Shown piece after piece: positions 43,094 to 51,088 of a stretch of DNA of 60,910 bases. The stretch lies in NCBI GenBank assembly GCA_944321965.1, contig CALUNH010000014.1:1-60910 (forward strand), read 5' to 3'. Below the pieces are notes generated by a model. That model was not told the DNA's origin, ran no database searches, and saw nothing but the letters and a program-made list of their open reading frames with translations. The position numbers and the translations under genes are program-made. The DNA is from an uncultured Alistipes sp. GTDB lineage: Bacteria > Bacteroidota > Bacteroidia > Bacteroidales > Rikenellaceae. The stretch's first letter is position 1. Each line of letters opens with the position of its first letter.

Positions 43094-43125
43094 CAAAGAT
43101 AGAGGGCCGCACCCTTTGCGGCAAA
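43094..43125 (-). promoter_or_regulatory. promoter of the lipoprotein gene
   Basis: TTTG (43122-43125) and TATCTTTG (43094-43101) on the minus strand, spacer 20 bases. It excludes the upstream part of the open frame to 43124. Confidence 0.7.
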
Positions 43126-43271: not shown

Positions 43272-44609
43272 TTACAGGATTCCCTGCTCGACCATCGACT
43301 TGGCAACCTTCATGAATCCGGCGATGTTGGCGCCCTTCATGTAGTTGATGTATCCGTCGGCCTCGGTGCCGTATTCCAGGCAGGCGTGGTGGATCGACGA
43401 CATGATCTGGTGCAGCTTGGCATCGACCTCTTCGGCCGTCCAGTTGAGTTTCTGGGCGTTCTGGGTCATTTCGAGTCCCGAGGTGGCCACGCCTCCGGCA
43501 TTCACGGCCTTGCCGGGTCCGTAGGGGATCTTGGCGGCGATGAAGGCGTCGATGGCCTCGGGGCGGCAGCCCATGTTCGAAACTTCGGCCACGATCTTCA
43601 CGCCGTTGGCCAGCAGCATCTTGGCATCCTCGCCGTCCAACTCGTTCTGCGTGGCGCACGGCATGGCGATGTCGACCTTGACCTCCCAGGGCTTGCGGCC
43701 GGGGAAGAACTTCGCGTTGGGGAACTTCTCGACGTAGGGTTCCACGACGTCGTTGTTCGAGGCGCGGAGTTCGAGCATGTAGGCGATCTTTTCGGCATTG
43801 AGGCCCTCTTCGTCATAGACGTACCCGTCGGGTCCGGAGATCGTGACGACCTTGGCTCCGAGCTCCGTGGCTTTGGTAGCGGCGCCCCAGGCGACGTTTC
43901 CGAACCCGGAGATGGCGATGGTCTGGCCCTTGATGTCCATGCCGACCTTTTCGAGCATCTGGCGCAGGAAGTAGACGGCGCCGAACCCGGTGGCCTCGGG
44001 GCGGATCAGCGAACCGCCGTAGGTCATGCCCTTTCCGGTCAGTACGCCGGTATTCTCCTGGGCGAGTTTGCGGTACATGCCGTAGAGGAATCCGATTTCG
44101 CGGCCTCCGACGCCGATATCACCGGCCGGGACGTCGGTTTCGGGCCCGATGTGCCGCCAGAGTTCGGTCATGAAGGCCTGGCAGAAGCGCATGACTTCGC
44201 GGTCGGACTTGCCTTTGGGGTTGAAGTCCGAGCCGCCCTTGGCGCCGCCCATGGGGAGCGTGGTGAGGGCGTTCTTGAAGATCTGCTCGAAGCCGAGGAA
44301 CTTGAGGATCGAGAGGTTTACGGAGGGGTGGAAACGCAGACCGCCCTTGTAGGGGCCGATGGCGTTGTTGAACTGGACACGGTAGCCGATGTTGGTCTGT
44401 ACTTCGCCCTTGTCGTCTACCCATACGACTTTGAACGTAAAGATGCGGTCGGGTTCGACGATCCGTTCCGCGATACGGTTAGCCTCGAATTCGGGGTGCT
44501 GGTTGTAGGCGTCTTCGACGGTCATCAGCACTTCGCGCACGGCCTGGAGGTATTCGCTTTCACCGGGGTGTTTGCGTTCGAGGTCGGTCATGATTTTGTT
44601 AACGTTCAT
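43272..44609 (-). CDS. gdhA: glutamate dehydrogenase
   Basis: Interconverts 2-oxoglutarate plus ammonia and glutamate. 445 residues of the hexameric class: the substrate-binding and catalytic Lys region LPMGGAKGGSDFNPKGKSDRE, the catalytic Asp region ETDVPAGDIGVGGREIG, and a Rossmann domain with ISGFGNVAWGAATKA. Coenzyme preference is not certain from sequence. It has its own promoter and terminator, and is the gene downstream of the receiver/PEP-synthase-like protein. Confidence 0.97.
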   Translation of the reverse strand: MNVNKIMTDLERKHPGESEYLQAVREVLMTVEDAYNQHPEFEANRIAERIVEPDRIFTFKVVWVDDKGEVQTNIGYRVQFNNAIGPYKGGLRFHPSVNLSILKFLGFEQIFKNALTTLPMGGAKGGSDFNPKGKSDREVMRFCQAFMTELWRHIGPETDVPAGDIGVGGREIGFLYGMYRKLAQENTGVLTGKGMTYGGSLIRPEATGFGAVYFLRQMLEKVGMDIKGQTIAISGFGNVAWGAATKATELGAKVVTISGPDGYVYDEEGLNAEKIAYMLELRASNNDVVEPYVEKFPNAKFFPGRKPWEVKVDIAMPCATQNELDGEDAKMLLANGVKIVAEVSNMGCRPEAIDAFIAAKIPYGPGKAVNAGGVATSGLEMTQNAQKLNWTAEEVDAKLHQIMSSIHHACLEYGTEADGYINYMKGANIAGFMKVAKSMVEQGIL

Positions 44610-44705: not shown

Positions 44706-47687
44706 TCATTCTTCGGCATTTTCCCGAATCATTCCCTTGTTCGAACGCCCGTCGACGCAGACCCAGAGTGGCCGCTCGAAGCGCACCTGCCGCAAATAGG
44801 TTCCGTCGTAATGGGCGGGCATGGCGTTGAGGCGCTCTTCGCGGAAGATTCCGTCGCCGCGGAAGGGGCTGATGGTCAGATACCCGACTCCGAGCGAGGT
44901 GACGTTCTGGAAGAAGTGGGTTCCCTGGGAGGGTTCGACCTCGAACTTTTCGATTCCGCACTCGACGATGACCTTCGCCTCGGAGATGTGGTTCCACTTG
45001 ACGGGCACGCCGAGGAAGGGATCGGAGGATCCCCAGCGTCCGGGTCCGACGAGGATGTACGAACGCCCCTCGTCGCGCATCCGGTTGTTGAGCGTGAGGA
45101 GTTCCGTGGCGATCTTCTCGGTGGAGAGCGAGTCGAAGGTGTCGTTCTTGACATAGATGATGTCCGCGAGGTCGGCCATCATGCCGATTCCGAGGGCCTG
45201 TTCGCCGTAGATCAGGGCCTGTCCGGGGTCTTCGACGGACCAGTCGATGGCGCGGTTGTCCTGGTTGTCGATGATGGGTCGGATCTGGAGGAGGTTGAAG
45301 ATCTGCTTGCGTCCGGGTGCGACGTCCATGTTGACGGCGAACTCCACCTCGACGGGGCAACGCATCTCCTCGGCGCCCATGCGGAGGATGTCCGAAATGA
45401 TTTCGGCGAGGGGGAAGGTGTTGTACTTGAGGATGTTGTTGAACGTGATGACTTTCCGGCCACGGTCGAAGGGGCTGTCGGAGATCCGTTCGTTTTCGCG
45501 GTCCCAGACCGAGCAGACGAACTTCGAGTTTCGGAAATCGGCGATTTCGCGCAGGCTCAGGTGGCGGAGGTTCACGGCGTCGTCGATCGAGGTCCGGAAC
45601 TCCTCGGGGCGGAGGCTCAGGGCGAGGACTTCGGTCTGGGTGTCGCTCAGGGCCAGCTCGGGGGTTGAGGTCTGGAGCACCTTCTGCGGGTATCGGGGCG
45701 AGAAGCGGAGGGTGCGTCCTCCGTCGACGACGAGTTTTCCGAGCCCCATGGCGACGTTGCAGACGCCGTCGGCGGCCTGTTCGTCGCCGATGGGGTAGTA
45801 GTTGATCGAGCGGGCGACACCGGAGCAGGTGGGGAACCAGAGACCGTTCTGCTCCGTACCGCAGACCTCCTGGATGATGACGGCCATCTTCTCTTCGGAG
45901 ATGAGGTTCTGCGAGGTGGTGATGTAGGCCCTCGACGCGGCGAAGTAGACCGAGGCGTAGACGCTCTTGACGGCGCGCAGCAAAAGACGCAGCATCTGGT
46001 CCTCGTTGTCGGTGTAGGGGATCATGTAGGTGGAGTAAATCCCGGCAAATGGCTGGTAATGTGAGTCTTCGAGTTTCGAGGAGGACCGCACGGCGAGCGG
46101 GGTCCGGACGGTCCGGATGTATGCCTTGAGCTCCTCCTGGAGGCGTTGCGGCATGGTCGAGGTGACGAATTCCGAGAGGATCTCCTCGTCGGAAAACTCC
46201 TGGGAGATGATGTACTGGAGTCCGTTGCGGCGTATGAACTCGTCGAAGTACTCCGTAGCGATGACCACCGAGCGGGGGATCATGATGCGGACGTTGTCGT
46301 GTTTGTCGTACTGGCGGTGCTTCATGAGCATGGAGTTCATGAAGGCCAGTCCGCGGGCCTTTCCGCCGAGCGAGCCCTCGCCGATGCGGGCGAACGCCAC
46401 GGCATCGGAGTAGGTTTCGGGGTCGAAACGCGCGACGACGCCCTGGCCGAGCAGGGTTCGGTAGTCGCGGATGAGGTTTACGAGGACGCGGCGGTGCTCC
46501 TCGACCGTGGAGAAGTGGCTTTTGTTGTACTGGCGGATGGAGGCGGCCAGGGGAAAGAGTCCGCGCGAATAGAGCCACTTGGAGAGGTGGTTCTGCGAGG
46601 TATGGTACTCGAAGGCCTCGTCGGGGATCGTGGCGATCATCTGCTGCATCTGGGTGAGGTCCTTGGCGCGTCCGATTTCGGCCCCGGTTTCGGGGTCTTC
46701 GAAGACGAAGTCGCCGAATGCGAACTCCTTGGCGATGTATTCGCTCAGTTGGGAGAGGAGCGTCTTGGAGTTTTTGGCGATGAATCCGGCTCCGAGTTCG
46801 CGGGCCTGCTCCTCGAAGGAGGTCTGCGAGGACTGCAGCAGGACGGGCATCAGGGGGTTGTCCTGCTTGATGCGTCGGCAGAGGTCGATCCCGGCGTCGA
46901 GTTTTTCGGTATCGGAGGGGTCGTTGCGGTGGAGGACGAACCCCACGTCGGAGATCACGCCGAGGAGGTTTTTGCTGTAACGGTCGTAGAGCTCCGTCGC
47001 CTCGTCGTAGCTGCGTGCCAGGAGGATTTTGGGCCGGGCGCGTTTGCGGAGGACCTGCTGCTGTTCGTTGAAGGCGTCCTTGAGGAACTCGGTGTTCTGG
47101 AGGAGGATCAGCTTGTAGAGCTCGGGCAGGTAGGTGGAGTAGAAGCGGATGGAGTCCTCGACCAGGAGGATGGCCTGCACGCCCCCTTCGAGAATATCCT
47201 CGTCGGCGTTCATCTTGTCCTCGATGAGCTTGATGATACCGATGATCAGGTCGGTGTTCCCGTGCCAGGAGAAGATGTAGTCGAGCCCCGAATGGTCCTG
47301 CTCCTCGATGCGGCGGTAGATGTCCTTGGAGAAGGAGGTGAGCAGCGCGACGGGGATGTTGGGATGGCGCTCCTTGACGATGCGGGCGAAAGCGAAGACG
47401 TCGGGCTCCCCGACGTTGTACATCGTGAGGATGAAGTCGTAGGAGTCGTCCTCGCGCAGGGCTTCGAGGGCCTCGGCCGTGGAGCTCACGCGGGTGAGCG
47501 ACGGGGGGTTCGACATGTTGAGGTCGATATACTCCTGGTTGATCTGGGATTCGATGTGTCCGTCCTCTTCGAGGATGTATCCGTCGTAGCTGCAGCAGAC
47601 GAGGAGGATCTTGTGGATCCGGTATTTCATGAAGCGGTACGGGAGTTTGCTCCCGTCGGGCATGTACTGTTCGAGGCTTTTGTTCAT
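44706..47687 (-). CDS. two-receiver / PEP-synthase-like ATP-grasp fusion protein
   Basis: 993 residues, cytoplasmic. Residues about 26-158 resemble a receiver domain but lack the phospho-acceptor Asp (DFILTMYN) and the Lys. Residues about 171-320 form a second receiver with ED at 176-177, Asp 247 (ISDV), Ser 286-287 and Lys 305. Residues about 437-806 are a PEP/pyruvate-binding ATP-grasp domain: GSLGGKARGL, VRSSSKLED, FAGIYSTY, VEFAVNMD and LLQIRPI. The last 190 residues (GPGRWGSSDP, SQGTHFFQN) are unfamiliar. The phospho-His swivel and PEP TIM-barrel of true PEP synthase are absent. Annotations as PEP synthase would be misleading. Confidence 0.9.
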   Translation of the reverse strand: MNKSLEQYMPDGSKLPYRFMKYRIHKILLVCCSYDGYILEEDGHIESQINQEYIDLNMSNPPSLTRVSSTAEALEALREDDSYDFILTMYNVGEPDVFAFARIVKERHPNIPVALLTSFSKDIYRRIEEQDHSGLDYIFSWHGNTDLIIGIIKLIEDKMNADEDILEGGVQAILLVEDSIRFYSTYLPELYKLILLQNTEFLKDAFNEQQQVLRKRARPKILLARSYDEATELYDRYSKNLLGVISDVGFVLHRNDPSDTEKLDAGIDLCRRIKQDNPLMPVLLQSSQTSFEEQARELGAGFIAKNSKTLLSQLSEYIAKEFAFGDFVFEDPETGAEIGRAKDLTQMQQMIATIPDEAFEYHTSQNHLSKWLYSRGLFPLAASIRQYNKSHFSTVEEHRRVLVNLIRDYRTLLGQGVVARFDPETYSDAVAFARIGEGSLGGKARGLAFMNSMLMKHRQYDKHDNVRIMIPRSVVIATEYFDEFIRRNGLQYIISQEFSDEEILSEFVTSTMPQRLQEELKAYIRTVRTPLAVRSSSKLEDSHYQPFAGIYSTYMIPYTDNEDQMLRLLLRAVKSVYASVYFAASRAYITTSQNLISEEKMAVIIQEVCGTEQNGLWFPTCSGVARSINYYPIGDEQAADGVCNVAMGLGKLVVDGGRTLRFSPRYPQKVLQTSTPELALSDTQTEVLALSLRPEEFRTSIDDAVNLRHLSLREIADFRNSKFVCSVWDRENERISDSPFDRGRKVITFNNILKYNTFPLAEIISDILRMGAEEMRCPVEVEFAVNMDVAPGRKQIFNLLQIRPIIDNQDNRAIDWSVEDPGQALIYGEQALGIGMMADLADIIYVKNDTFDSLSTEKIATELLTLNNRMRDEGRSYILVGPGRWGSSDPFLGVPVKWNHISEAKVIVECGIEKFEVEPSQGTHFFQNVTSLGVGYLTISPFRGDGIFREERLNAMPAHYDGTYLRQVRFERPLWVCVDGRSNKGMIRENAEE

Positions 47688-47712: not shown

Positions 47713-47741
47713 CAAAAATAAGGAAAAAATTGTTACCTTTG
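47713..47741. promoter_or_regulatory. back-to-back promoters of the fusion-protein and GNAT genes
   Basis: TATTTTTG on the minus strand (47713-47720) and TACCTTTG on the plus strand (47734-47741). The boxes start 21 bases apart, facing away. Predicted leaders are about 20 and 27 bases. Each -33 region would overlap the opposite -7 box. Confidence 0.65.
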
Positions 47742-47774
47742 GATGTTGGAAACGTTGAAAATAACCGTAGAATC

Positions 47775-48980
47775 ATGAATCAGGGAAAATATACGTTGCA
47801 GGAGGTGACGACGCCGGCCGTGGAGCGGGAGTGGCTGAACCTTCCGAAACGGATCTACAAGGGCAACCGGAACTGGGTCTGCCCGCTGGACCAGGATGTG
47901 CTGGAGGTCTTCGACCCGGCGCGGAACGAGCTTTTCGCCGACGGCGAAGCGATCCGCTGGGTGGTCCGGAATGCTTCGGGCGAGGTCGTGGGGCGCATTG
48001 CCGCGTTCTACAACCGTGAGAAGGCGGCCATCGAGGAGCAGCCGACGGGCGGCTGCGGCTTTTTCGAGTCGATCGAGGATCAGGCGGTGGCCGACATGCT
48101 GTTCGACGCCGCGCGGATGTGGCTGGCGAGCCGGGGCATGGAGGCGATGGACGGTCCGGTCAACTTCGGGCAGCGGCGCGACTGGTGGGGGCTTCTGGTC
48201 GAGGGCTACGAGTTCCAGCCGCTCTACAAAAACCCCTACAACCTGCCCTACTACAAGGATCTGTTCGAAAACTACGGCTTTCAGAACTACTTCAACCAGC
48301 ACAGCTTCATCTGGCGGGTGAACAATTCGGAGGCCAACAAGCAGATCTTCGCACGGGCCGAACGGCTCTATACGGTTCCGGGCTATCGCGTCGAGACGAT
48401 CGACATGAAGAATCTGGAGGAGGCTGCCGAGAACTTCCGGGTGATCTACAACAAGGCGTGGGCGCTCTTCTCGGGCGTAAGGCCGATGACGCAGGAGGAG
48501 GCTCTGATGATGGTCCGCGAGATGAAGCCGATCATCGATCCGCATATTATCTTCTTCGCCTACTTCAACGACGAGCCGATCGGCTTCTTCATCACGGTTC
48601 CGGACCTGAACCGCCTGATCGGGAAGTTCAACGGCAAGTTCGGGCTGTGGCAGAAGCTGCGGCTGATGTGGGACCTGAAGGTGCGGAAGTCGTGCGACCG
48701 GATCTTCGGGATCATCTTCGGGATCACGCCTGAGTTCCACGGCAAGGGCGTGGAGTCGGCGATCATGGTGAAGTACTACGAGTTCCTGGAGCTGACGAAG
48801 AACCCCTACAAGACGATGGAACTGGCGTGGATCGGCGACTTCAACCCGGTGATGAACCGGATGATCGAGACCTACGTGTGCGCCACGCGGCACAAGATCC
48901 ACACGACGTACCGCTACCTGTTCGACCGCACGAAGGAGTTCCACCGCTGCCCGCGCCTGGGCGTGAAACGCCGCGAGTAA
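47775..48980 (+). CDS. GNAT-like acyltransferase family protein, unknown substrate
   Basis: 401 residues without signal or membrane helices. The C-terminal half resembles a GNAT domain: IIFFAYFNDEPIGFFITVPD followed by GITPEFHGKGVESAIMVKYYEF, which holds a variant of the acetyl-CoA loop, and an Asn-rich MELAWIGDFNPVMNRM. The N-terminal half (PKRIYKGNRNWVCPLDQDVLEVFDP ... DGPVNFGQRRDWWG) looks like a second, decayed GNAT fold. The ATG at 47775 follows the promoter. gcvT starts 15 bases after the stop. Confidence 0.85.
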   Translation: MNQGKYTLQEVTTPAVEREWLNLPKRIYKGNRNWVCPLDQDVLEVFDPARNELFADGEAIRWVVRNASGEVVGRIAAFYNREKAAIEEQPTGGCGFFESIEDQAVADMLFDAARMWLASRGMEAMDGPVNFGQRRDWWGLLVEGYEFQPLYKNPYNLPYYKDLFENYGFQNYFNQHSFIWRVNNSEANKQIFARAERLYTVPGYRVETIDMKNLEEAAENFRVIYNKAWALFSGVRPMTQEEALMMVREMKPIIDPHIIFFAYFNDEPIGFFITVPDLNRLIGKFNGKFGLWQKLRLMWDLKVRKSCDRIFGIIFGITPEFHGKGVESAIMVKYYEFLELTKNPYKTMELAWIGDFNPVMNRMIETYVCATRHKIHTTYRYLFDRTKEFHRCPRLGVKRRE

Positions 48981-50119: not shown

Positions 50120-51088
50120 ATGAAAACGGAATATTTGGGACTTCAACTGTCGAGTCCCGTGATTGTGAGCAGTTCGCCCTACACGTCGAACATGTCCCAT
50201 ATCGAGTCGTGCGTCCGCGCGGGAGCGGGCGCCGTGGTGCTGAAATCGATCTTCGAGGAACAGATCTACCGCCAGGCGGCTTCGCTGGACAAGATGGAGG
50301 GCTATGGCGACGCCGGGGAGTACCTCGAACGCTACCTGGGCGACGCCTACAAGGCCGAGTTGCTGCAGCTCGTGAAGGATGCTGCCAAGACGGGCGTGCC
50401 GGTGATCGGCAGCATCAACTGCGCGGGTTCGGGGGATGCGTGGATCGACTATGCGACGTCGATGCAGGCTGCCGGGGCTTCGGCTCTGGAGCTGAATATC
50501 TTCCTGCTCCCGACGGACCGCCACGCCTCGGCCGCCGGGATCGAGCAGCACTATGCGGACATCGTGCGCAAGGTTTGCGCGGCGGTGACGATCCCGGTCT
50601 CGGTGAAGCTGCCGATGCGTCTGACGAACGTGCTCTCGACGTGCGACACGCTGCTGGCCCGCGGTGCGAAGGGCGTTGTGCTGTTCAACCGTTTCTTCGA
50701 ACCCGATATCGACATCGAGAAACTGACGTTCCAGCCTGCGGATCCGTTCAGCCAGCCGACGGAGCTTCGTCACGTGCTGCGCAGTACGGCCCTGTGTTCG
50801 CACGCGCTGCCCCAACTGGACATCTCGGTTTCGACGGGCGTACACGACGGTGCTGCGGCGGTCAAGGCTTTGCTTTGCGGTGCTTCGGCGGTCCAGGTCT
50901 GCACGGCGATTCACAAACACGGTTACGAGGTGATCGGCCAGATCGGGTCGTTCATCGACGAGTGGGCCGCACGCCACGGTTTCGACACGCTGTCGGCATT
51001 CCGCGGGCGGATGGACTACGGCTCCTCGCAGGGTGAGTTCTTCCAGCGCGTGCAGTATATGAAATACTTCCCGCACGACGCCGAGTAG
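50120..51088 (+). CDS. dihydroorotate-dehydrogenase-like flavoprotein
   Basis: 322 residues with the class 1 DHOD TIM-barrel pattern: LGLQLSSPVIVSSSPYTSN at the start, ELNIFLLPTDR in place of the NxSCPN loop, the FMN-binding Lys in IPVSVKLPMRLTN, and a C-terminal STGVHDGAAAVKALLCGASAVQVCTA phosphate site. The usual active-site Cys or Ser base (NxSCPN) is not evident, so pyrimidine synthesis is doubtful; substrate unknown. It follows gcvT by 20 bases. Confidence 0.88.
   Translation: MKTEYLGLQLSSPVIVSSSPYTSNMSHIESCVRAGAGAVVLKSIFEEQIYRQAASLDKMEGYGDAGEYLERYLGDAYKAELLQLVKDAAKTGVPVIGSINCAGSGDAWIDYATSMQAAGASALELNIFLLPTDRHASAAGIEQHYADIVRKVCAAVTIPVSVKLPMRLTNVLSTCDTLLARGAKGVVLFNRFFEPDIDIEKLTFQPADPFSQPTELRHVLRSTALCSHALPQLDISVSTGVHDGAAAVKALLCGASAVQVCTAIHKHGYEVIGQIGSFIDEWAARHGFDTLSAFRGRMDYGSSQGEFFQRVQYMKYFPHDAE

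Follow-up and report, generated by a model that had tools for sequence, protein, structure and literature searches.

The stretch of DNA analysed here, referred to as the window, comprises 60,910 nucleotides of contig CALUNH010000014.1 (assembly GCA_944321965.1) from an uncultured Alistipes sp., and its complementary strand encodes a protein of 993 amino acids in which two receiver domains are followed by an ATP-grasp domain and a C-terminal domain without a Pfam family. The gene for glutamate dehydrogenase (GDH), gdhA, which the first-pass annotation of the window had put beside the gene for this protein, follows on the same strand 97 bp downstream, and relatives of the protein adjoin a GDH gene in many members of the phylum Bacteroidota; therefore, the enzyme probably controls or serves GDH. 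The open reading frame (ORF) is not a chance reading frame, because its family recurs in 45 of 61 relatives, in 105 of 180 genomes of the genus and in 69 of 395 genomes sampled evenly across the phylum (E<=1e-30, with up to two candidates scored per genome; all three counts include the genome of the window). Beyond the phylum, the genome scan covered the best 80 of 587 relatives, which does not establish the spread outside Bacteroidota. Of five plasmid matches, three are full-length and come from Bacteroidales, and two (Methylocystis and Peptoclostridium) cover only part of the ATP-grasp domain.

Domain anatomy and conserved residues

The features of the gene, its domains and its downstream neighbour are as follows.

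44706..47687, minus strand: receiver-receiver-ATP-grasp-C-terminal protein, single ORF with ATG start, 993 amino acids
47208..47618, minus strand: receiver 1, degenerate, with Met89 at the phospho-Asp position (residues ~24-160)
46698..47180, minus strand: receiver 2, with intact pocket Glu177/Asp178, Asp247, Ser286 and Lys305 (residues ~170-330)
46398..46697, minus strand: linker, mainly helical in the secondary structure of the model (residues ~331-430)
45270..46397, minus strand: ATP-grasp domain of the PPDK_N type, with invariant Lys443, Arg534-Ser-Ser, Glu540-Asp541, Glu782 and Gln801 (residues ~431-806)
44709..45269, minus strand: C-terminal domain with the motifs GPGRWGS and S.GTHFF (residues 807-993)
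44916..44918, minus strand: codon of His924, the sole His of the C-terminal domain kept in at least 90% of members
43272..44609, minus strand: gdhA, GDH of 445 amino acids

The order of two receivers and an ATP-grasp domain, which had been read from the sequence in the first-pass annotation, is borne out by Pfam, by the structural model, by Foldseek and by residue conservation. PPDK_N is matched at residues 439-810 (137.6 bits, E=7.5e-40) and Response_reg in two stretches (E=1.7e-5, 25.4 bits, under the cut-off of 30.2); the two remaining Pfam matches both have E >0.1, and no NCBIfam model scores above its cut-off. The AlphaFold model, built with 58 homologues, has a mean pLDDT of 87.7 and a pTM of 0.80, with 55 of the 993 residues below 70, and its secondary structure agrees with two receivers, a helical linker, an ATP-grasp domain and a C-terminal alpha/beta domain. 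The top ranks of Foldseek against the PDB are the rifampin phosphotransferase RPH (5hv1, E=1.5e-11), HpeI (9goj, 2.7e-9) and PleD (~1e-6), and PorX is a weak match (0.002). The homologue in Parabacteroides distasonis is annotated as 'PEP/pyruvate-binding domain-containing protein'.

Four architectures were found in the family. Type i is that of the window. Type ii is extended at the N-terminus by at least one repeat without a Pfam match, and in several loci it stands beside genes of 2-oxoacid:ferredoxin oxidoreductase. Type iii consists of the ATP-grasp and C-terminal domains alone (~580 residues). Type iv is mostly ~1060 residues long and ends in a nucleotidyltransferase domain, with NTP_transf_2 over the cut-off in all three members scanned (examples are L132:6374-9565 on the plus strand, L128:4805-7987 and L141:6446-9646); in a type iv relative of 778 residues the Pfam scan found no NTP_transf_2. 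The nucleotidyltransferase signature recalls GlnD/GlnE.

Conservation was counted in 234 family members (198 of receiver type, 26 type iv pieces and 10 of type iii) after the exclusion of nine loci, namely six repeats, two that were cut short and, in error, L025; the rows are partly non-independent, many coming from congeners and from two overlapping genome collections. Among the 198 receiver-type members, position 89 at the end of the third strand of receiver 1 is Met in 130, Thr in 58 and another residue in 10, and the pocket of receiver 2 is nearly invariant: Glu177 in 197 (one gap), Asp178 in 190 (seven Asn, one gap), Asp247 in 197 (one gap), Ser286 in 197 (one Thr) and Lys305 in all 198. 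Receiver 2 therefore holds the acidic pair, phospho-Asp, Ser/Thr and Lys of a response regulator at a Pfam score under the cut-off, and the proposal of one dead and one live receiver agrees with these counts. The acidic pocket had been described as Asp177, Asp247 and Lys305; it is intact and the latter two residues stand, but residue 177 is Glu, and the acidic pair is Glu177/Asp178.

The core motifs of the ATP-grasp domain, likewise pointed out earlier, are intact. All 234 members have Lys443, Arg534, Ser535, Ser536, Glu540 and Asp541, and 232 have Glu782 and Gln801, with gaps in the other two. In RPH, the phosphates of ATP are positioned by Lys22 and Arg117, and the Lys22Ala protein is inactive (PMC4844700). 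Lys443 and Arg534 may be the counterparts of these two residues, a pairing made by motif and not by superposition.

The C-terminal domain (~185 residues), which had been called unfamiliar, is indeed so. It was modelled alone with a pLDDT of 91.6 and a pTM of 0.90 as a mixed alpha/beta domain. Pfam gave no family for the domain of the window protein and, among 58 members, just single-member matches (E 0.017-0.074); a PDB sequence search found no relative (best E=0.21), and Foldseek against the PDB gave no match at or below 0.001 (best E=0.031). Comparison of its profile with the genome's own PPDK revealed no similarity, in a test that is insensitive, given that the whole-protein profile also scored poorly despite the related ATP-grasp domains. 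Arg884 is found in 231 of 234 members (one Gln, two gaps), Glu909, Ser920 and His924 in 231 each (three gaps each) and Tyr936 in 231 (one Phe, two gaps). Being the only His of the domain with this degree of conservation, His924 is a possible candidate for a phosphoacceptor in cis that would replace a swivelling-His domain.

Linkage to glutamate dehydrogenase across the phylum

Gene neighbourhoods, which the first-pass annotation had proposed to compare, were collected from 68 phylum-sample genomes besides that of the window, each with at least one match to the family, giving 78 loci; some second matches are not included. In 58 of the 68 genomes a GDH gene lies within 6 kb of a family member. 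By our own estimate, random placement would give roughly 1% linkage, with two to three GDH genes in ~3.7 Mb. Clustering of 683 neighbouring ORFs without use of labels also put GDH first among the top 15 clusters (58 genomes), followed within 6 kb by an aminotransferase (19 genomes; one member checked by Pfam matched PF00155 with 192.5 bits), a response regulator (12), an oligopeptidase-like protein (10) and a histidine kinase (10). In the phylum loci, a LuxR-type regulator occurs in 12 genomes, three of them by weak matches only, a histidine kinase in nine, and an ammonium transporter in one; the best NCBIfam models for the kinases are of the MctS, UhpB and NarQ/NarX types, none over its cut-off.

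At shorter range, GDH lies within 1 kb of 115 of the 234 family genes, part of the rest being too close to a contig or locus end to judge. The linked GDHs were typed by their best BLAST match to three references (the 445-, 451- and 428-type), and a GDH tree separates them into three groups, with a support of only 38 for the 451 group and with long-branch warnings. Parsimony on a FastTree phylogeny with 114 labelled family genes requires 11 switches of partner type and 14 of gene order. For 13 of the 115 labelled genes, two GDH types are found within 1 kb, and when these 13 are left out the remaining 101 rows give seven partner changes and ten order changes. Well-supported branches alone force four type changes for the 451-type, three for the 445-type and two for the 428-type. 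Because partner type and gene order change repeatedly on the family tree, the GDH linkage is not one inherited block, and it has persisted while the partner was repeatedly rearranged or replaced.

The individual layouts vary accordingly. In Parabacteroides distasonis, gdhA is divergent from the family gene and a second GDH lies a few genes further, and in two genomes of the same order (G290 and G298) the family member lies directly downstream of a GDH of 444-446 residues, tail to tail. The 428-type GDH is present in 20 of the 26 loci with type iv relatives, and types iii and iv stand together beside it in ten loci. In a separate observation, the type iv gene at L144:6840-11011 (minus strand) overlaps the upstream GDH by ~10 bases in the ORF-finder calls, which suggests translational coupling. 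In each of three loci (L237, L241 and L244) a single cluster combines three GDH genes, which represent two types, with two family genes, a histidine kinase and a LuxR-type regulator. Long paralogues with the repeat ERLKEL..AWQYPE (L031:10765-17171, L032:1523-8348 and L033:8609-14786) sit between a short family gene and genes of 2-oxoacid:ferredoxin oxidoreductase, with gdhA on the other side; the oxidoreductase genes of L031 match POR_N, POR and TPP_enzyme_C in Pfam, and the layout is possibly a 2-oxoglutarate-centred cluster.

Members of Bacteroidota often carry at least two GDH genes. Among 70 good genomes of the genus, at least two GDH hits are found in 39 of the 49 with the family gene and in one of the 21 without it; the hits of the one exception (G550) appear to be fragments. 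A plain Fisher test of the gene against a second GDH, which ignores kinship, gives p=3e-9, and a joint loss of the two is suggestive, not proof.

Proposed function and its alternatives

What function, then, does this protein perform? We put at about even the chance that it is a signal-gated, ATP-using regulatory enzyme dedicated to GDH. The first-pass annotation had supposed a kinase or nucleotidyl-transfer enzyme whose substrate is perhaps a partner protein; the activity as such remains conjectural, and for the partner the conserved neighbourhood makes GDH a specific candidate. In the proposed mechanism a histidine kinase or other phosphodonor would phosphorylate Asp247 of receiver 2, and the change would reach the ATP-grasp domain by way of the receivers and the linker. 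That domain would bind ATP as in rifampin phosphotransferase and hand on phosphate, with His924 as a possible intermediate; the recipient would be either GDH or a small molecule that the C-terminal domain binds. GDH activity, in whichever direction the effect runs, would thereby track nitrogen or carbon status. A bolder version, which we hold only tentatively and consider less likely, is that the family represents a new protein-modifying class, in which a receiver-switched ATP-grasp phosphotransferase with its own phosphoacceptor domain (His924) would covalently control GDH across Bacteroidota and would have nucleotidyltransferase sister forms. If this were true, the protein would be to GDH what GlnE/GlnD are to glutamine synthetase and PII.

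Several findings weigh against a regulator of GDH. On the one hand, the linkage is incomplete: ten of the 68 genomes, each with a single match, are without it, six with type iv relatives (G429, G347, G256, G169, G220 and G449, two of them just ~777 residues) and four with the receiver type (G296, G192, G276 and G074), and several clades of the genus lack it as well. Genes that stand between GDHs of two types inflate the count of 11 partner changes, and no histidine kinase was noticed adjoining the gene in the window. On the other hand, the dependence between the two genes is loose. With kinship taken into account on the GdhA tree, the joint loss is not significant (three concordant, no opposite and two undecided pairs, p 0.25), ten of the 49 good genomes keep the family gene with a single GDH hit, and two genomes (G020 and G531) lack the family gene at the syntenic place between gdhA and its neighbour and retain gdhA; therefore, gdhA need not depend on the family gene. 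(Two further genomes, G558 and G560, had no match in the genus scan, and their loci, L152 and L153, did not show the neighbour genes, which makes them uninformative on the site.) His924 could also be structural. Finally, linkage alone does not distinguish a GDH regulator from another enzyme in its pathway.

It is the latter, a pathway enzyme whose substrate is a metabolite related to glutamate, that forms the main rival, although we judge it unlikely. The protein would then be a dikinase that acts on a small molecule in the catabolism of glutamate or peptides, its ATP-grasp domain would phosphorylate a metabolite such as a 2-oxoacid bound by the C-terminal domain, and the link to GDH would reflect a common pathway. 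The nearest folds, RPH and HpeI, are indeed small-molecule kinases, and the loci also hold the aminotransferase genes and oligopeptidase-like genes, the latter in 11 genomes when the whole fetched phylum loci are counted. However, the receivers and the N-terminal repeats of the paralogues suggest regulation over bulk catalysis, and GDH is the only partner found in most genomes.

Somewhat less likely still is a non-catalytic regulator, in which the receivers and an ATP-grasp domain that senses ATP/ADP would allow the protein to bind GDH without modifying it. Receiver-controlled binding is a common regulatory mode, and the linkage suits a binding partner equally to a substrate, but the near-absolute conservation of Lys443, Arg534, Glu782, Gln801, Arg884, Glu909, Ser920 and His924 argues for catalysis.

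The remaining alternatives concern the phosphotransfer domains of the dikinases. The swivelling-His domain (PF00391, motif GGxTSH) was not found in the 993-residue protein, including its C-terminal region, by Pfam, profile comparison or Foldseek; the PEP/pyruvate TIM barrel has no Pfam match, and ~185 residues remain after the ATP-grasp domain. The absence of both, proposed in the first-pass annotation, is thus upheld, but to describe the protein as lacking its phosphotransfer domains may go too far, considering that the C-terminal domain has the invariant His924. It is improbable that the protein is one half of a split dikinase whose swivelling-His domain comes in trans from a separate chain. 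The model for it is HpeHI, whose ATP-grasp and swivel domains reside on separate proteins (PMC12167813). No such partner was found for the present family: a search of the genome, whose assembly is 85% complete, revealed a single PF00391 domain, which sits inside a complete, ordinary PPDK, none of the ORFs of at least 100 amino acids in the 78 phylum loci contains the motif GGx[TS][SC]H[AS], and the swivel segment of that PPDK, used as a query against the ORFs of the same loci, matched nothing related (best E=0.43). A PEP synthase or PPDK of the ordinary kind under a wrong annotation has in its favour the PPDK_N match with an intact nucleotide site, and we reject it with hardly any reservation, since neither the His domain nor the barrel was found and a normal PPDK is encoded elsewhere in the genome.

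Neighbouring genes and relation to known systems

On its other side, the family gene is flanked by one feature that stands outside the proposed system.

47730..48980, plus strand: divergent gene of 416 amino acids, labelled GNAT in the first-pass annotation

The divergent orientation was read correctly, but the GNAT label is unsupported, as no Pfam or NCBIfam family scores over its cut-off. This neighbour keeps its place beside gcvT in the loci of three relatives, including two without the family gene (L148 and L151). In G020 (L148:6795-8861) a DUF5020 gene, together with a gene for a permease of the xanthine/uracil type, occupies the place of the missing family gene. The Bacteroidetes-type promoter pattern has four matches in the window against 0.17 expected by shuffling; one of them (43094-43125, minus strand) overlaps the 5' end of a called DUF4840-like ORF, and the window scan found no exact match upstream of gdhA or of the family gene. 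At 50120-51088 (plus strand) the window carries a gene for a dihydroorotate-dehydrogenase-like flavoprotein (PF01180, 39.4 bits). Two other kinds of system were tried and rejected: a defence system was discounted for want of a PADLOC match at E<=0.1 for the 993-residue protein, and a phage origin was discarded, PHROGs giving just two weak matches (E=0.00053 and 0.027) and the viral-contig scan eight pattern matches, none of them confirmed.

GDH is a main carbon/nitrogen junction in Bacteroidota, a phylum abundant in the human gut. To our knowledge, there is no explanation of how Bacteroidota avoid a futile cycle between their GDHs. A dedicated family that stands beside several GDH types and carries a two-component receiver would offer such a mechanism, and if it is shown to modify GDH, the protein would be a new kind of regulator. 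A report of 1996 by Baggio and Morrison, going by its title, is said to describe one or more neighbouring trans-acting genes that affect the activity of GdhA in Bacteroides thetaiotaomicron. These genes resemble the present family in phylum and in their position near gdhA, and they might be members of it; a dedicated family would make that report testable with a handful of mutants. The idea that BT_1970-1973 of B. thetaiotaomicron has the same layout was dropped; two papers call BT_1971 a catalase. Titles and abstract openings in the open-access literature, taken in part where the lists were long, mention neither the receiver-ATP-grasp architecture nor the link to GDH.

Among characterized proteins, RPH-Lm (PDB 5hv1 and 5fbs) shares the ATP-grasp fold and an AVRSS-type motif that was aligned by HMMER. 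It differs from the 993-residue protein, in which no RIF-binding or swivel phosphohistidine domain was found and which has N-terminal receivers and a C-terminal domain without an assigned family. HpeI of the two-component dikinase HpeHI likewise has a PPDK-type ATP-grasp domain on a chain that lacks a swivel domain, whereas it partners HpeH, the bearer of the swivel His. With PEP synthase and PPDK the protein has the PPDK_N ATP-grasp domain in common, without their His domain and TIM barrel. PleD and PorX are, like it, multi-domain response regulators. PleD carries tandem receivers, and the outputs are a diguanylate cyclase in PleD and a phosphatase-like domain in PorX, not an ATP-grasp domain. 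The ATP-grasp domain and the receivers are thus of known kinds, and the protein is a variant within the PPDK-type ATP-grasp superfamily. What is new, as far as the open-access literature listings go, is their fusion with a conserved C-terminal domain and the phylum-wide tie to GDH. The family would add to the dikinase superfamily an ATP-grasp domain without a recognisable swivelling-His domain, joined to a C-terminal domain without a significant match in the PDB.

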